A stretch of 64,000 bases of DNA from the NCBI RefSeq assembly GCF_011065895.1, contig NZ_JAALCR010000005.1:248001-312000 (forward strand), read 5' to 3'. Origin of the DNA: Paludisphaera rhizosphaerae (GTDB lineage: Bacteria > Planctomycetota > Planctomycetia > Isosphaerales > Isosphaeraceae). Position 1 is the first letter of the stretch; each line of letters begins with the position of its first letter. The notes beneath the pieces were generated by a model. That model did not search any database. It saw only the letters and a list, made by a program, of their open reading frames with translations, and was not told the origin of the DNA. This document shows, in pieces, positions 54,967 to 62,178 of this stretch. A program made the position numbers and the translations under genes.

Positions 54967-55953
54967 TCACTTGGGCTGCGGGAAAACGACCTTCCAGTCG
55001 GCCTTCATGTCGACGACGACCCAGCCGGCGGCGGGCGCAAGGTCCAGGGCCTTGTCGAGCCGGCCGATGGGCGACTCGCGATCGTAGGCGAATTCGCGGT
55101 CGGCGTCGGTGTGGTGGACGATCAGGCCGAAGCGAAGGCCAGAGCCGGCCGTGGTCCACTGGAGCATCTGGAGGTCGCCGTCCGAGTTGCCGAACGCCGC
55201 GACCGGCCGGCGGCCGATGATCTTGTTGATGTTCACGGGCTTTCCCGGACCGTCGTCCACGAAGTCGATCGCCGGGAGCTTCACGAGCACGGGCTTGCCG
55301 TCGCGAATCTCGAACTCGGTCTTGCCGGAACTGCCGATCACCTGCTCCGGAGGGATGCCGTAAGCCTCCTCCGCCCAAACCCGCATGAACTCGACGCCGC
55401 CGCCGGAAACGATGTACGTCTTGAAGCCGTTCGCCCGCAGGTAGGCGAGCAACTCCCGCATCGGCTGGTAGGTCAATTCGTTGTACGGGCGGCCGAGGGT
55501 CGGATGCCTGGCCGCCGCGATCCAGTCCTTGACCACGGTCTGGAACTCCTCGGTCGTGAGTCCCGAATGGCTCTTGTTCACCACGTCGACGAGCGCCTTC
55601 TCCCCGCCCGCCAGCGCCGCCTTGAGGTCGCCTTCGAGAATCCCCTTGAACGGCTGGGTCTCCTTCCATTCGGGATGATTCGCCGCCAGGGCCTTGATGC
55701 GGTCGACGGCGAAGGCGGCCTGGACGTAGACGGGCTTCTCAGACCAAAGCGTGCCGTCGTTGTCGAAGACGGCGATCCGATCGGCCGGCGGAATGAACTC
55801 CGGTCCTCCCTGTTTGGTCGCTCGCTCAACGAACTCCAAGATCGCCCGCTTCGCCGAACCTTCGTTCCACGAGGGAAGCGGCTCGGCGCTAAGAACCGGT
55901 GAAGCGACGGCGAACGTCGCGACTGCGACGAAGAGCTGAAGGGTGTTGCGCAT
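54967..55953 (-). CDS. Exported HAD-superfamily phosphatase
   Basis: 328 residues. A signal peptide (LQLFVAVATFAVASPVLSAE) precedes a HAD fold: motif I IAVFDNDGTLWSEKP with nucleophile D64 and D66, motif II YIVSGGGVEF, motif III Lys probably in the FEIRDGKPVLVK region, and motif IV AAFGNSDGDLQML with the two Asp. The arrangement is closest to exported phosphoserine-phosphatase-like enzymes. It would hydrolyse a phosphate ester in the periplasm. An intrinsic terminator of the upstream sigma gene lies between, so the gene should have its own promoter within 55954-56090. Confidence 0.86.
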   Translation of the reverse strand: MRNTLQLFVAVATFAVASPVLSAEPLPSWNEGSAKRAILEFVERATKQGGPEFIPPADRIAVFDNDGTLWSEKPVYVQAAFAVDRIKALAANHPEWKETQPFKGILEGDLKAALAGGEKALVDVVNKSHSGLTTEEFQTVVKDWIAAARHPTLGRPYNELTYQPMRELLAYLRANGFKTYIVSGGGVEFMRVWAEEAYGIPPEQVIGSSGKTEFEIRDGKPVLVKLPAIDFVDDGPGKPVNINKIIGRRPVAAFGNSDGDLQMLQWTTAGSGLRFGLIVHHTDADREFAYDRESPIGRLDKALDLAPAAGWVVVDMKADWKVVFPQPK

Positions 55954-56162: not shown

Positions 56163-57050
56163 TCAGCATGCGGCGGCGACGGCCACCGCCGCAGTCCGGC
56201 GGGATCGACGGGTGGGAGCCGGCGCGGGCTGAGAACCGTCGAGCTTGCGGACGGCCCGCAGCTCCAGCTTCCGGACCCACTCGCGGGTGATGCCCAGGCG
56301 TTCGCCGATCTCCTTGAGAGTCAGGATCGGAGCGCCGCCGAGGCCGTAGCGGTGGCGGAGGACGAACCGCTCGCGGTCGTCGAGGACCTCCATCCGGCGA
56401 GCCAGATCAGCGCGGTCGTCGTGAAGTTCCATCTCGGAGCCCGGCTCGTCGGTGGGGTCGACGGAATGGTCGGGGGTCCAGTAGTCGTCCTCTTCGGCCG
56501 CCGCGCTCTCCAGCTTCACCTGGTTGGCCCGCCGGGCCTTGGCGACCAGCGACCGCTGCATCGACGACAGCTCCAGGTGGTCGGCGATCTCCTCAAACCC
56601 GGGGGCTCGGCCGAGGTCGCGGGTCAAGGCCCGCTCGGCGCGGCGCCACTTCGTCAGCAGCCCGACCATGTGGGCGGGGAGGCGGATCGTCGTCGCCGTG
56701 TTGATCAAGGAGTGACGGATGGCCTGCTTGATCCAGTAGCCGGCGTAGGTGCTGAACCGCGTGCCGAACCGAGGATCGAACTCCTTGGCGGCGCGGATCA
56801 GACCCAGATTCCCCTCGCCGATCAGGTCGTCGAGCGACATGCCCCGGCCCTGGTAGTCGCGGGCGATCCGGACCACCAGCCGCAGGTTGGCCGAAATCAT
56901 CCGAGCCCGAGCCGCCTCGTCGCCCAGAGCGATCGCCCCGGCCAACCGCCGCTCGTCGTCGGCCGTGAGGAGGGAGACTTCGTTGATGTCGTGAAAATAG
57001 GTCTGCAAGTCGTGCGAAACGCCGCAGTCCTTCGCCTCGATGCGAGACAT
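56163..57050 (-). CDS. Group-2 RpoD-like sigma-70 factor
   Basis: 295 residues. It has regions 1.2 to 4.2 but no region 1.1: DLQTYFHDINEVSLLTADDERRLA (1.2), RMISANLRLVVRIARDYQGRGMSLDDLIGEGNLGLIRA (2.1-2.2), FDPRFGTRFSTYAGYWIKQAIRHSL (2.3-2.4), TIRLPAHMVGLLTKWRRAE (3.0), and DDRERFVLRHRYGLGG ... TLKEIGERLGITREWVRKLE (4). This is the layout of non-essential SigB/RpoS-like relatives of the housekeeping factor. GGGAG lies 8 bases before the ATG at 57050. The final 20 residues are a basic/Ala tail. An intrinsic terminator follows. Divergent from the ECF sigma/kinase pair. Confidence 0.92.
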   Translation of the reverse strand: MSRIEAKDCGVSHDLQTYFHDINEVSLLTADDERRLAGAIALGDEAARARMISANLRLVVRIARDYQGRGMSLDDLIGEGNLGLIRAAKEFDPRFGTRFSTYAGYWIKQAIRHSLINTATTIRLPAHMVGLLTKWRRAERALTRDLGRAPGFEEIADHLELSSMQRSLVAKARRANQVKLESAAAEEDDYWTPDHSVDPTDEPGSEMELHDDRADLARRMEVLDDRERFVLRHRYGLGGAPILTLKEIGERLGITREWVRKLELRAVRKLDGSQPAPAPTRRSRRTAAVAVAAAC

Positions 57051-57678
57051 GGCTTTCTCCCGGCCCTGGTCGCCGTTTCGATTGGGGAATGTCGTCGGGT
57101 TGCAGATCCGTTCGAGCCGCCGGCGGACGCTCCGAGGAGAGGAGGATGGTGATGAGGGAGGGCTTCGGCAGCCGCCCTCAGCCGCGTCATGCGTCCATCG
57201 CTTCCAACCCTGGAAGGAGCAACGAACTGCCAGTTGCACAGGGACGATGGAAGCGGACATGGATTCGAAGGATTTTTTTAAAGCAACGCCGGCTCGGCGA
57301 TATAAGCCGGCCCTCCTCATCCATGAATCATTGAGATTTGCTGTCCCAACCGGGCGAAACCAACGTACAAACCGTTTGAAAGGGAACCTTGAAACCCAGA
57401 GCGAGCCCACCGGGCGACCCCCACAACCTCCGCGACCGCCATAACCGCCCAACATTTTGAAGCAGCGACTGGAAAAAGGCGGCATCAGGTTGTTTAATTA
57501 ACCATTGTGAAATGGATAAGCCTCCATGCGCTCATCAACCGGATCGGTTGATGAGACCCTCGCGTGGAGAAGGCGCACGAGGTCGCCCGACTCCCTTCGG
57601 TTCCCGTTCGACGGCGGTTCCTGGACGGGGCCCGGCGCAGACGCCCGGCCCGAGCATTCCACGGCAGGGGGCGGACCG
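57051..57678. other. Divergent regulatory region between two sigma-factor genes
   Basis: About 628 bases, locally AT-rich at 57270-57310 and 57470-57530, with no convincing gene. It includes a TATAAG at 57301-57306 and a perfect palindrome at 57531-57555. It probably contains the promoters of both the group-2 sigma gene (minus) and the ECF sigma/kinase operon (plus). Confidence 0.5.
57531..57555. promoter_or_regulatory. Perfect 25-base palindrome with 11-bp arms
   Basis: Arms ctcatcaaccg (57531-57541) and cggttgatgag (57545-57555) around a 3-base centre, 124 bases upstream of the ECF sigma start. It may be an operator or, if transcribed, a leader hairpin. No T-run follows, so it is not a classical terminator. 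Confidence 0.55.
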
Positions 57679-58359
57679 ATGAATGACCCGATGGAAACGG
57701 GAGCAAATCCCGGATCGGTCGAAAACAGCGAGGTCGGCGACGAGCAACTCTCGAGCGACGTTCTCGAGAATCTCTCGCGCGACGTTCCTGAACTGGTCGC
57801 GCGCGCCCGAGCGGGAGATCCGGAAGCGGTCCGGACGTTCGTCGGTCGCTATGAGCCCGAGGTGCGGAAAATGGTTCGCGGCCGGCTCCCGCGCAGGCTT
57901 CGCAACCAGTTCGACTCGATGGACTTCGTCCAGGCGGTCTGGAAAGCCTTTCTCGTCGATAAGAAGGAAGATCCGGAGGAGTTCGAGAACTCGCGACACT
58001 TGCGGAAGTTCCTGGCCGGCGTGGCGCGGAACAAGGTGTTCGAACAGGATCGACGCCTGACCCGAACGGCGAAGTACGAACTGGCCCGCGAGGAACCTCT
58101 CTACGTCCGCCGCGGCGACCGCGAGCTGGAACGCGAGCTGCCCGCCGCCGACCCCTCCCCCAGCGCCGCCGCCCAGGCCAGCGATCGGCTCGCCTTCCTG
58201 ACCGCCGGCCGACCGGCCCGCGAGGTGGAGATGCTCACCCTCCGCCACGAAGGGCTCACCATCGACGAGATCGCCGCCAGGCTCGGCGTCAACGAGCGAA
58301 CCGTGCGACGGACCATCGAGGCGGCGCGGGAACGAATGGAGGCGCACGGATGGGCGTGA
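57679..58359 (+). CDS. ECF sigma factor paired with a kinase
   Basis: 226 residues from the ATG at 57679. An acidic N-terminal tail of about 35 residues is followed by region 2 (VRTFVGRYEPEVRKMVRGRLP; QFDSMDFVQAVWKAFL; NSRHLRKFLAGVARNKVFEQDRR) and region 4 (TAGRPAREVEMLTLRHEGLTIDEIAARLGVNERTVRRTIEAARERM). The form of region 2 (DSMDFVQ-x-VW) is typical of planctomycete ECF factors controlled by Ser/Thr kinases. Its last 10 bases overlap the kinase gene, implying coupled translation and joint action. Confidence 0.88.
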   Translation: MNDPMETGANPGSVENSEVGDEQLSSDVLENLSRDVPELVARARAGDPEAVRTFVGRYEPEVRKMVRGRLPRRLRNQFDSMDFVQAVWKAFLVDKKEDPEEFENSRHLRKFLAGVARNKVFEQDRRLTRTAKYELAREEPLYVRRGDRELERELPAADPSPSAAAQASDRLAFLTAGRPAREVEMLTLRHEGLTIDEIAARLGVNERTVRRTIEAARERMEAHGWA

Positions 58360-61300
58360 CCTCGTTCCCCTCGTCATCGACGATCGACCTGTCGGGCGGA
58401 GACGACTCACGCGCGTTCTCGTCGGCGCTGGCCGACCTGGCCGACCGTTGGCGACGAGGCGAACCGGCGGCCGCCGAAAGCTACCTTCACCACGGCGCGG
58501 GATGGTCGGCCGACCGCGCCGTCGAGTTGATCTATCGCGAGTACCGCCTGGCCAAGTCGGCCGGCCTGGCGCCGTCGAAGTCGGAATACCTGGCTCGCTT
58601 CCCCGAGCACCGTCGCGAGTTGCAACGGCTGCTGGACGTCGACGACGCATGCCCGGACTCGCTGCTGGAGCGGTTCGACGCGACCGACCTCAGCGACGAT
58701 CCCCTGCCCCGCGCCGGCGACGCCATCGGCCCTTACGTGCTGGAGCGTGAGTTGGGTCGAGGGGGCTTCGCCCGGGTCTTCCTCGCCCGCCAAGCCGACC
58801 TGGAAGACCGCCCGGTCGTCGTCAAGATCACGACCCGGCCGACCCGCGAGCCCTGGCTGCTGGCCCGCGCCCGGCACCCGCACATCGTGGAGATCCTCAC
58901 CCACGCCGAGGTCGACGACGGCGAGCTTCAGCTCATCGCCATGCCGTTCCTGGGAGGGGCGGCGTTGTCGACGCTGCTGGAGCATCGGCGGTCGCAGCCG
59001 GCGGAAGGCCGGCGCGAATCGTCGCGGCGGTTCCTCACGGATCTCGACGCCGTCTCGGCGCCCGAGCATCGCCGGGCCGGCTCAGCGTCCCCCTCGCGGG
59101 CCTTGCTGCGGGGAATGAGCGACGCCGAGGCGTTCGCCTGGACCGCCGCCCGACTGGCCGAAGCGCTCGACCACGCTCACCGTCAGGGGGTGGCCCACGG
59201 CGACGTCAAGCCGTCGAACATCCTGATCGCGGCCGACGGCACGCCGATGTTGCTGGACTTCAACCTGGCGCAGGACTGGTCGCGCGACGACGCCCTCGAC
59301 GCCGGCGGCACCGCGGCCTACATGGCCCCGGAACGGCTTCGCGCCCTGGCGGGCATCGCCGAGCCGTCGCCTTCGCGCGTGGACGACGAACAAGCGCATC
59401 GAGCCGACGTCTATTCGCTGGGGATGGTCCTGCTGGAGGCCCTGACGGGATGGTCGCCGGCTCGCGAGATGGACGCCGATCGGCGTCTCGGACGCTCCGC
59501 CTTCGCCGCCGCCGCCGAGGCTCGCTCCCGGTCCGACCGACTCGTCCGCGCGGCCGAGGCGCAGGCCGCACGGCCGCTGCCGGCCGGCCTTCGCTCCATC
59601 CTGGTCCACTGCCTCGAGGCTGATCCCCGGGAACGGCACACGCGCGGTTTGGAGTTGGCCGAAGACCTGGACCGCTGGCGGACCGACCGCCCCCTGGCCT
59701 TCGCGCCGGAGCCCTCCGGACTGCACGCGTCGCTGCGATGGGCCCGCCGGCGACGACGGCCGCTCGCGGCCGCGGCCGCGGCTCTGGGAGTCGCCGCGCT
59801 GGCGCTGGGGATCGCCGCCAGAGCCGACCGAACGGCAGAAGCCCGGCTCGGCGGACACGCCTACGAGAAGTACACGGAGTTCGTCGACGATCCGGCCTCT
59901 CCGGTCCTGCCGACTCAACGACCTGACGAGACCTATCTCCGCCGCCGCAATCCGAACGAGACGGTCACCAACGCCCTCCGCATCCTTCGCGAGTACAGCA
60001 TCCCGACCGACCCCGACTGGCGGTCGCGCGACGACTTCCGGCTTCTCGCCGAAGACGATCGCGAGGACCTGGAGCTGCTGCTGCTGGAGCACGCCCTACG
60101 CTACGGCCGCGTCCTGGCTCAACGTCCAGACTCCCCCAAGGACTGGCGTCGCGCCCGCGAAATCCTCGACCACGCCTGCGGCACGACCTGGCCTCGTGAG
60201 TTGACGACCCTGCGCGACAAGCTTACCCGCCAGCTCGGCGACGCCGGATCAGCGGCGGCCGCCCTGCCAGGGCCGACCGAACTCCCTCCGGCGTGGGTCG
60301 ACGCTTATCTCCGCGGGATCGCCGCCGAAATCGGGGACGGAGACCAGGGCCCCGGCACCGACTCGGGGGCGCGCCGGGCTGCCGACTTCTACGCCGAACT
60401 CTTAAGATCCCGCCCCAACTCGTTCTGGGGGCACCACCGCGCGGCGGTGGTCGCCTCGGTGGTCGACCGATGGGCGGACGCCGCCGACCATGTCGAGGCC
60501 TGTCTCCGCCGCCGTCCAGACAACGCCGTCCTCCGTTGCCTGCTCGCCACCTGCCTCATGAATTTCGACCGCGACGACGAGGCCGTCGCTCAGGCCGACC
60601 AGGCCATCGAAGCGGCGCCCGATCGCGCCGAGTTCGTCCAGGTCCGCGCCTTCGCACGCACTGCGGGCTCAGACCTTGACGCCCTGAAGCGCGACCTCGC
60701 ACGCTACGAGACGCTGCTGGGCGCGGTCCCCTCCCGACTCCATCAGGAAGCAGGCGTCGGCGACAACCTTCCGCTCGCGCCGAAGCCCCGGCGGCGGGCG
60801 GTCGATAAGGAAGAGGCAGACGGCGTCCCCAACGGCGAGATCAAATCCCGCTCCGTCCTCGCAGCCTGGATCCGCGAGTACGGCCAGCCGAAGGGCGGGG
60901 ATTCCAGGATCAAAGAGGTCGAACACGATTCCGAGCGCGTCGAGTTGGCGGCCCGGGAGGTCGAGAAGATCCTGGAGCTCGATCCCACCAATCTCCAGGC
61001 CCATATCGATTCCCTCTGCCTGGATGTCTTCCGTCGACGCTATCCGGAAGCCGTGGCCGAGGCCGAGTGGATCATGCACGATCCTCGACTGCCCGAATTC
61101 GCCCGCACCTCACGCGATGGGCTGGTGTCGCTGCAATACTCCAGCGTCTTGCTCGCCAACGCCAAGGAGATCCGCTCGGCGTTGCGATTGGCCGCCAAAA
61201 CCGTGGAGTTGAGCATCGCGGTTCAGTCTCATCATCAAGGCCGCGCCTTCTACTACCTGTCGCTGGTCGAGGCCCGCGCCGCGTTTTACAACCGCAAGTG

Positions 61301-61475
61301 GTTCCCCAGGGCCGCCGAGCATCTCGATCAGGCCGTCCAGGCCAATCCGCTCTTCGAAGACTGGTTCCAGCAAGACCAGCTCTTCGACACGACCCGCATT
61401 CAAATCCAGGCGCTGCGGGACGCCCGGTCCCGCGGTGTGCGGGCCCGTATTTTCTCGCCGTTCGTCAGCCTGTGA
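58350..61475 (+). CDS. Membrane-anchored Ser/Thr kinase-like protein with atypical catalytic motifs and TPR-like outer domain
   Basis: 1041 residues, overlapping the sigma gene by 10 bases. Residues 1-120 are the helical planctomycete pre-kinase region. The kinase domain runs about 126-450: glycine loop ELGRGGFARVF (134-144), Lys in RPVVVKITT (K159), catalytic loop AHGDVKPSNIL with HGD instead of HRD (283-285), and DFN (303-305) replacing DFG. Only about 16 residues separate K159 from HPHIV, so helix C looks shortened. The activation segment (GGTAAYMAPERL) is intact. A membrane helix at about 471-489 is followed by about 540 outer residues of TPR-like helices (RPNSFWGHHRAAVVASVVDRWADAADHVEACLRRRPDN). 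It may phosphorylate the sigma or act as a pseudokinase scaffold. Confidence 0.87.
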   Translation: MGVTSFPSSSTIDLSGGDDSRAFSSALADLADRWRRGEPAAAESYLHHGAGWSADRAVELIYREYRLAKSAGLAPSKSEYLARFPEHRRELQRLLDVDDACPDSLLERFDATDLSDDPLPRAGDAIGPYVLERELGRGGFARVFLARQADLEDRPVVVKITTRPTREPWLLARARHPHIVEILTHAEVDDGELQLIAMPFLGGAALSTLLEHRRSQPAEGRRESSRRFLTDLDAVSAPEHRRAGSASPSRALLRGMSDAEAFAWTAARLAEALDHAHRQGVAHGDVKPSNILIAADGTPMLLDFNLAQDWSRDDALDAGGTAAYMAPERLRALAGIAEPSPSRVDDEQAHRADVYSLGMVLLEALTGWSPAREMDADRRLGRSAFAAAAEARSRSDRLVRAAEAQAARPLPAGLRSILVHCLEADPRERHTRGLELAEDLDRWRTDRPLAFAPEPSGLHASLRWARRRRRPLAAAAAALGVAALALGIAARADRTAEARLGGHAYEKYTEFVDDPASPVLPTQRPDETYLRRRNPNETVTNALRILREYSIPTDPDWRSRDDFRLLAEDDREDLELLLLEHALRYGRVLAQRPDSPKDWRRAREILDHACGTTWPRELTTLRDKLTRQLGDAGSAAAALPGPTELPPAWVDAYLRGIAAEIGDGDQGPGTDSGARRAADFYAELLRSRPNSFWGHHRAAVVASVVDRWADAADHVEACLRRRPDNAVLRCLLATCLMNFDRDDEAVAQADQAIEAAPDRAEFVQVRAFARTAGSDLDALKRDLARYETLLGAVPSRLHQEAGVGDNLPLAPKPRRRAVDKEEADGVPNGEIKSRSVLAAWIREYGQPKGGDSRIKEVEHDSERVELAAREVEKILELDPTNLQAHIDSLCLDVFRRRYPEAVAEAEWIMHDPRLPEFARTSRDGLVSLQYSSVLLANAKEIRSALRLAAKTVELSIAVQSHHQGRAFYYLSLVEARAAFYNRKWFPRAAEHLDQAVQANPLFEDWFQQDQLFDTTRIQIQALRDARSRGVRARIFSPFVSL

Positions 61476-61482
61476 CCCGCTC

Positions 61483-62178
61483 TCAAGCAGGCGGATCCTG
61501 ACGTCGGGCCGCCGATTTCCAGGCGGCGACTCCGCACGAGGAGCACCCCGCGCCGTGGGGTTTCGTCGCGCAGGAGCCTGAGCCGGAGGCGGTTGCAGGG
61601 CCGTCGGCCCTGGTCTTCGCCGCGGCCTTCGAACAGCCGCCGGAGCCGCAATCGCAGTCGCCGCAGCGTCCGGAGGAGGCGGAAGCGGTCGGCTCGGCGA
61701 CGACCGGTTCGTCCCCCACGGGCTCGACGTGGACGTCGAAGTCGCACGAGACGCGGAACCGAGCCCGGATCGGAGCCGGGTCCAGTTCATCCAGCGGCAG
61801 GACGATCAGCACCGTGGAGAAGTCCAGCAGCGGCTCGACGTCCACCAGTTCCAGCGGCCAGCCCTCGTGCTCGACGATCCCCCGGCAGAGATCAAACCGA
61901 GACTCGCGCAGGGCGTCGGCCTCGCGGGCGCGGGTGAGGTCGTCGTCTCCGGCTCGGCGGAGGACTCGAAAGGGGCCGACTGAGTCCTCACCCGCTCGAC
62001 CGCGAGGGGCCTCGACGACGAGCATCTCGCCCAGTTCCAGCCCGCGAACGGTGCGGACAACCACCGCGTCACCCCGCGAGGGAGCGTCCGGGCCGTCCTC
62101 GCCCGCGAACCAGGCCACGCGGCCGGAGAGGCCGTAGCGAACCAGGCATTCGACTCCTTCGCTCGCCGCCATCGCCAT
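61483..62178 (-). CDS. PSP1-like domain protein with Cys-rich C-terminus
   Basis: 231 residues (an ATG at 62172 is a near-equal start). Residues 10-150 match a PSP1 domain: RGDAVVVRTVRGLELGEMLV, RVLRRAGDDDLTRAREADALRES, WPLELVDVEPLLDFSTVLIVLPLDELDP. The tail has two Cys clusters, SSGRCGDCDCGSGGCSKAA (about 168-186) and GSCATKPHGAGCSSCGVAAW (about 203-222), nine Cys in all. In Bacillus the PSP1 protein RicT/YaaT sits in an iron-sulfur-binding complex, so metal or cluster binding is plausible here. Divergent from a P1B metal ATPase, with a good sigma-70 promoter facing this gene. It converges with the kinase gene. Confidence 0.78.
   Translation of the reverse strand: MAMAASEGVECLVRYGLSGRVAWFAGEDGPDAPSRGDAVVVRTVRGLELGEMLVVEAPRGRAGEDSVGPFRVLRRAGDDDLTRAREADALRESRFDLCRGIVEHEGWPLELVDVEPLLDFSTVLIVLPLDELDPAPIRARFRVSCDFDVHVEPVGDEPVVAEPTASASSGRCGDCDCGSGGCSKAAAKTRADGPATASGSGSCATKPHGAGCSSCGVAAWKSAARRQDPPA

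Follow-up and report, generated by a model that had tools for sequence, protein, structure and literature searches.

We analysed a 64,000-nt stretch of the genome of Paludisphaera rhizosphaerae, a planctomycete of the family Isosphaeraceae and the class Planctomycetia (contig NZ_JAALCR010000005.1, positions 248,001–312,000; hereafter the window), in which the gene of an extracytoplasmic function (ECF) sigma factor runs into that of a transmembrane Hanks-type Ser/Thr kinase with an unusual active site. From sequence comparison and structure models, the best reading of the pair, and one we consider fairly probable, is that of an active transmembrane kinase controlling its cognate ECF sigma factor. 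The sigma factor (226 aa; 57679–58359 from ATG 57679, stop included; features lie on the forward strand unless noted) has the domain architecture of the ECF family (Pfam Sigma70_ECF PF07638, 5.4e-14; Sigma70_r4_2 PF08281, 1.3e-8). The kinase (1041 aa; 58350–61475, ATG 58350) matches Pkinase PF00069 (3.1e-26) and has full-length orthologues. A first-pass annotation of this DNA had proposed that the two genes overlap by 10 bases, and indeed both open reading frames (ORFs) are found, sharing the 10 nt from 58350 to 58359. We infer both the kinase activity itself and the sigma factor as its substrate: the ECF sigma factor and the kinase, which spans the membrane once, would form a two-gene signalling unit. 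An outer superhelix of tetratricopeptide repeats (TPR) in the kinase is most likely the sensor of a ligand or partner, and the cytoplasmic kinase domain would phosphorylate the sigma factor, or a site that frees it, and so switch the regulon. ECF sigma factors linked to Ser/Thr protein kinases (STPKs) are known already; the kinase here belongs to a subfamily with a remodelled switch, of which we found no description in the open PMC literature.

A planctomycete kinase lineage with an altered active site

The kinase domain (about aa 118–456, 58701–59717, as aligned to PknB; model range 118–454) carries HGD (aa 283–285, 59196–59204) and DFN (aa 303–305, 59256–59264) in place of HRD and DFG, just as the first-pass annotation had read them. 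We aligned 82 kinases (alignment A1), namely the window kinase, its orthologues and paralogues in the family, and another 39 loci found by searching the whole class, three of which come from the same family as the window. Locus L045 (genome G038) was left out of this alignment and of a second one, A2; within the match of its orthologous kinase there is a single in-frame TGA, from error or decay. In 82/82 sequences the residues G136, G138, K159, E167, H283, D285, K287, N290, D303, F304, G320, E328 and D353 are invariant, so that the whole Hanks-type set (glycine loop, beta-3 Lys, helix-C Glu, HxD Asp, Asn and DFx Asp) is present throughout; the features credited to the kinase before (glycine loop, Lys, catalytic Asp, Asn) are thus kept. 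A pseudokinase is defined by loss of the beta-3 Lys, the HRD Asp or the DFG Asp (PMC12599244), and all three are retained in all 82. The earlier count of about 16 residues at the site of helix C is right, as 16 residues separate K159 from H176 of the HPHIV motif; however, it overlooked the helix-C Glu, E167, which stands 8 residues past K159 and 9 before H176.

At the centre of HxD stands R in 36 sequences, G in 35, L in 7, M in 3 and C in 1, and DF is followed by N in 74, H in 7 and G in 1. Between the Lys and the Glu there are 7 residues in 81 relatives and 8 in one, which corresponds to a Lys-Glu spacing of 8 in the window kinase compared with 19 in PknB of Mycobacterium tuberculosis (11 more in the alignment). 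HGD and DFN occur together in 35/35 orthologues and are therefore not a chance combination. In addition, a lineage-specific insertion of ~50 residues follows the hinge (aa 205–257, 58962–59120); the segment between hinge and helix E is 44–119 residues long in 82/82 relatives and about 5 in PknB. Among the orthologues, the kinase part is the better conserved, with 38–76% identity to the window protein compared with 23–50% in the outer part.

The AlphaFold2 model of the kinase domain (mean predicted local distance difference test score, pLDDT, 89.7) is bilobal, and its best structural match among those listed is PknB (Z 27.8, root-mean-square deviation 2.3, 255 residues aligned, 32% identity), likewise a bacterial Ser/Thr kinase and the closest solved fold among these matches. 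In the model, beta-3 spans aa 154–161 and helix C only aa 167–173 (58848–58868), two turns beginning at Glu167. Given this beta-3, the short helix C and PknB as the best match, the fold is a standard one with a shortened helix C. PknB itself has HRD, DFG and no insertion after the hinge, and carries PASTA domains outside. Misassignment of the motifs can be rejected, since the alignment, the hidden Markov model (HMM) match to PknB and the structure model all agree on them.

These changes are not peculiar to the window. The 8.05-Mb genome that carries it yielded 67 distinct parsed kinases (70 kinase stretches less one duplicate and two without motif; one further PF00069 place was left out). DFN or DFH occurs in five of them, and precisely these five have a Lys-Glu spacing of 8. 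For 50 of the 62 others the spacing could be parsed: it is 16–23 in 44 and never 8, the remaining six values (5, 10, 12, 32, 32 and 43) being presumed pattern errors. We built a tree from 143 kinase domains (stretches L014, L020, L177, L183 and L195 omitted), in which the kinases with a short helix C are monophyletic (83/83, support 0.998), and all 60 other kinases of the same genome fall outside. The HGD kinases form one clade nested within them (36/36, support 0.988), which makes HGD a single later change, kept in 35/35 orthologues. Of 248 genomes sampled from the class, 116 hold relatives at E<=1e-45; the 39 further loci comprise 32 with DFN, 6 with DFH and 1 with DFG, and the non-planctomycete relatives (L068–L072) have DFG in 5/5. 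Judged by sequence and models, a short helix C with DFN or DFH (and the hinge insertion) marks one class-wide planctomycete kinase lineage, to be understood as sampled, because its members were collected for their similarity to the window kinase. No description of this lineage was found in the open PMC literature. What had looked like a one-off degenerate kinase becomes a class-wide lineage with a sigma partner and with fixed changes of the active site that are inherited together, and its HRD, HLD, HMD, HCD and HGD forms, all with a short helix C, are a natural set for probing, in bacterial kinases, the part played by the length of helix C, by the Gly of DFG and by the Arg of HRD. Two other kinases of the same genome (L189, L190) combine HGD with DFG and lie outside this clade; a third (L179) has DYN in place of DFG and a normal spacing of 19.

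Co-inheritance with the sigma factor

The sigma gene lies immediately upstream of the kinase in 30 of the 35 orthologues; one more stands at a contig end (L050), so that the linkage is conserved in 30/34 testable cases, with four exceptions. As sigma-like ORFs lie near 19 of the 70 kinase stretches of the same genome, adjacency alone is weak evidence, and lasting co-inheritance argues for partnership more strongly. Scoring sigma orthologues at E<=1e-45 (found in 36/45 family genomes), we found both genes in 36 genomes, the kinase only in one (at a contig edge), the sigma factor only in none and neither in 8. Both are thus present or both absent in 44/45 genomes, even where they are unlinked (Fisher 4e-8, uncorrected for ancestry). 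The kinases of G021 and G042 are contig-edge fragments and were counted by identity (56 and 53%) rather than by motif. G034 was counted as having neither, its sigma match of 1.2e-38 missing the 1e-45 line; its divergent HGD/DFH kinase (L110) falls in the HGD clade. The fixed partnership proposed before therefore stands as a partnership, though 'fixed' is too strong, since in four genomes the sigma gene is no longer beside the kinase.

Within the sigma factor, the DxxD core of region 2.2 reads D79-S80-M81-D82 (57913–57924). In 34 orthologous sigma factors, D79 is kept in 33 (one Glu), Ser or Thr at position 80 in 34/34 and D82 in 34/34. The first-pass annotation had suggested looking for a phosphorylatable residue in this region, and S80 is one; together with the conserved T128, T130, S160 and S162 it is a candidate phosphosite. 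Both ends of the motif being acidic in 34/34 orthologues, the trait of group ECF43 (an acidic DxxD replaced, with Thr) is absent. Like EcfP–PknT and EcfK–PknS of ECF43, the window pair joins a sigma factor and a Hanks-type kinase encoded together; however, ECF43 sigma factors lack a DAED-type motif and gain charge via Thr phosphorylation, while the window sigma factor has DSMD with both Asp. An EcfP-like switch in region 2.2 was therefore rejected, activation by supply of a missing charge being unlikely where the acidic core is kept. For EcfK, phosphosites in the linker have been reported, and PknS is transmembrane (PMC13147305). Control by a neighbouring STPK has been proposed for six ECF groups, of which four (ECF59, ECF61, ECF62 and ECF217) include planctomycete examples, and groups other than ECF43 keep the acidic region 2.2 motif, which EcfP lacks (PMC8999054). 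The window sigma factor resembles these four in its place beside a Ser/Thr kinase and in its acidic region 2.2, although the passages of PMC8999054 on them give no active-site variants of the kinases. For ECF61, the protein listed comes from Planctomycetales bacterium 71-10, in whose genome our locus L067 also lies, a match at genome level only. The present lineage bears on the question whether phosphorylation controls those STPK-linked ECF sigma factors that keep the acidic residues of region 2.2.

A probably active kinase and its alternatives

Is the kinase a working enzyme? Human Bub1, an active kinase (PMC4675524), has HGD (915–917), a Lys821–Glu830 spacing of 9 and no activation-loop phosphorylation, Haspin has DYT in place of DFG, and DFG variants occur in active kinases (PMC3513839, the first two in its Table 1). 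By analogy, Bub1 or Haspin provides an active counterpart for each oddity of the window kinase. Bub1 shares HGD, a short Lys-Glu spacing (9, here 8) and TPR in the same protein; it differs in being eukaryotic, in its DLG and in its N-terminal TPR; the likeness is a parallel and implies no kinship. Bub1 is not among the 50 listed structure matches of the kinase model, an absence from the list that excludes nothing. Since the oddities are common to a whole planctomycete lineage in which every catalytic residue is kept, the window kinase is more likely a functional enzyme than a dead one, and a pseudokinase was rejected as the main explanation, all catalytic residues being invariant.

Several points weigh against a kinase that acts on the neighbouring sigma factor. 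In four genomes of two genera (G014, G015, G037 and G038) the sigma gene is not beside the kinase; an orthologue with 51–55% identity sits elsewhere, and the PSP1 gene is still found downstream of the kinase. Sigma-like ORFs are, as given above, frequent near kinases of this genome. S80 and S160/S162 may be kept for structure alone, and the aligned paralogous sigma factors share the same DSxD. Bub1 needs phospho-S969 in its P+1 loop, where it is crucial (PMC4675524), so that HGD is no guarantee of activity free of phosphorylation, and no tested kinase with DFN and such a helix C was found in the open PMC literature. The kinase might accordingly be active on some other protein, with the adjacent sigma factor, not its (main) substrate, transcribing the pair and a regulon. 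The unlinked genes of the four genomes would fit this, as would the intact acidic region 2.2, with which phosphorylation is not needed for RNA polymerase binding, and the 16 of 39 further lineage loci that show no sigma gene in the fetched stretch, a count from a neighbour model built on the window sigma factor and its paralogues that may miss other sigma factors. However, the orthologues co-occur in 44/45 genomes, unlinked cases included, and kinase-controlled ECF sigma factors are an established kind (PMC8999054, PMC13147305), so that we regard this alternative as unlikely. In 11 of the 39 further loci (L111, L120, L121, L126, L128, L132, L133, L140, L141, L143 and L145) a sigma-like gene lies on the strand opposite to the kinase.

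The first-pass annotation had itself suggested possible signalling by binding rather than by strong phosphorylation; in such a reading, a weak or dead kinase would hold or release the sigma factor like a membrane anti-sigma factor. HGD, DFN and the short helix C are real and would agree with this, as might the lower frequency of Ser/Thr in the activation-loop stretch before GT, which are found in 21/34 HGD kinases, 29/33 HRD-DFN kinases and 51/58 other kinases of the same genome (Fisher p 0.008 for 21/34 vs 51/58, and 0.023; the sequences are related, which is uncorrected for, and the stretch was chosen by us). This direction might also fit a non-RD kinase. Against binding stand the standard fold, the catalytic residues invariant in 82 relatives, the pseudokinase definition of PMC12599244, which the kinase does not satisfy, and active Bub1 with its HGD and short spacing (PMC3513839); we therefore consider it improbable. 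An ordinary PknB-like kinase whose motif changes carry no regulatory meaning, suggested by PknB as best match in fold and sequence among those listed and by the DFG variants of active kinases (PMC3513839), is very improbable, as the changes are not scattered but define well-supported clades (short helix C with DFN/DFH, and HGD) and are kept family-wide.

Returning to an active kinase that controls the sigma factor, the missing HRD Arg suggests that activation-loop phosphorylation may not be needed, in which case the kinase would be controlled from elsewhere than this loop, e.g. by dimerisation through the TPR part. Tentatively, and as a possibility that we hold to be less than even, the lineage may have rebuilt the kinase switch (a two-turn helix C, DFN/DFH, a hinge insertion and, in this family, loss of the HRD Arg) to become largely independent, as has been suggested for Bub1 and convergently with it, of the usual helix-C swing and of loop phosphorylation, with direct control by the outer TPR. 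If true, a bacterial lineage of often sigma-linked kinases would have converged on a Bub1-like kinase core.

Domain layout, gene starts and neighbouring genes

In the AlphaFold2 model the kinase is preceded by a cytoplasmic helical domain (aa 14–110, 58389–58679), for which the window protein shows no Pfam match. As the DFG kinases L170, L007, L027, L021, L164, L011 and L019 of the same genome carry the same domain, we rejected it as a specific compensation for the short helix C. A membrane helix follows the kinase domain (aa 472–490, 59763–59819; hydropathy peak at 472, model helix 469–504) and is preceded by a run of Arg, the kinase side being inside. Beyond it, at about aa 535–1027 (59952–61430), the model of the extracytoplasmic part is an all-helical superhelix (pLDDT 87.6) whose best PDB matches in Foldseek are mostly TPR proteins (8chy, a consensus TPR, 5.0e-7; OGT TPR, 3.5e-6), and Pfam TPR_19 matches at 3.7e-6; the membrane helix joining the kinase to a TPR-like outer domain had thus been correctly recognised. 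The same layout, with a cytoplasmic kinase, a membrane-spanning segment and a C-terminal TPR mostly outside, is described for planctomycete TPR/WD40 Ser/Thr kinases (PMC11032199); 'HRD' and 'DFG' have 0 occurrences in the main text of that paper, so it does not discuss such variants under these names.

A likely ribosome-binding site of the kinase, GGAG at 58338–58341, lies within the sigma gene. GGAG stands exactly 8 nt 5' of the chosen kinase start in 23 of the 30 orthologues with an adjacent sigma gene, which supports the start used here. Of these 23, 12 have ATG at -10 and 11 a start at -4, so that sigma and kinase genes share 10 nt in the window and 4 nt in many relatives. Translation of sigma factor and kinase would be coupled, in line with the placement of GGAG.

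Divergent from the ECF sigma gene lies an RpoD-family sigma-70 gene (56163–57485, reverse strand), which holds the same position in loci L031–L035, L066 (Paludisphaera soli) and L067 of the genus, and also in L154, where the ECF gene has moved away and the RpoD-family gene is still in place. Convergent with the kinase is a PSP1/RicT-like gene (61483–62178, reverse strand), a conserved neighbour even where the sigma gene is gone. Further upstream, a HAD-type hydrolase gene (Pfam HAD, 3.9e-13) occupies 54967–55953 on the reverse strand.

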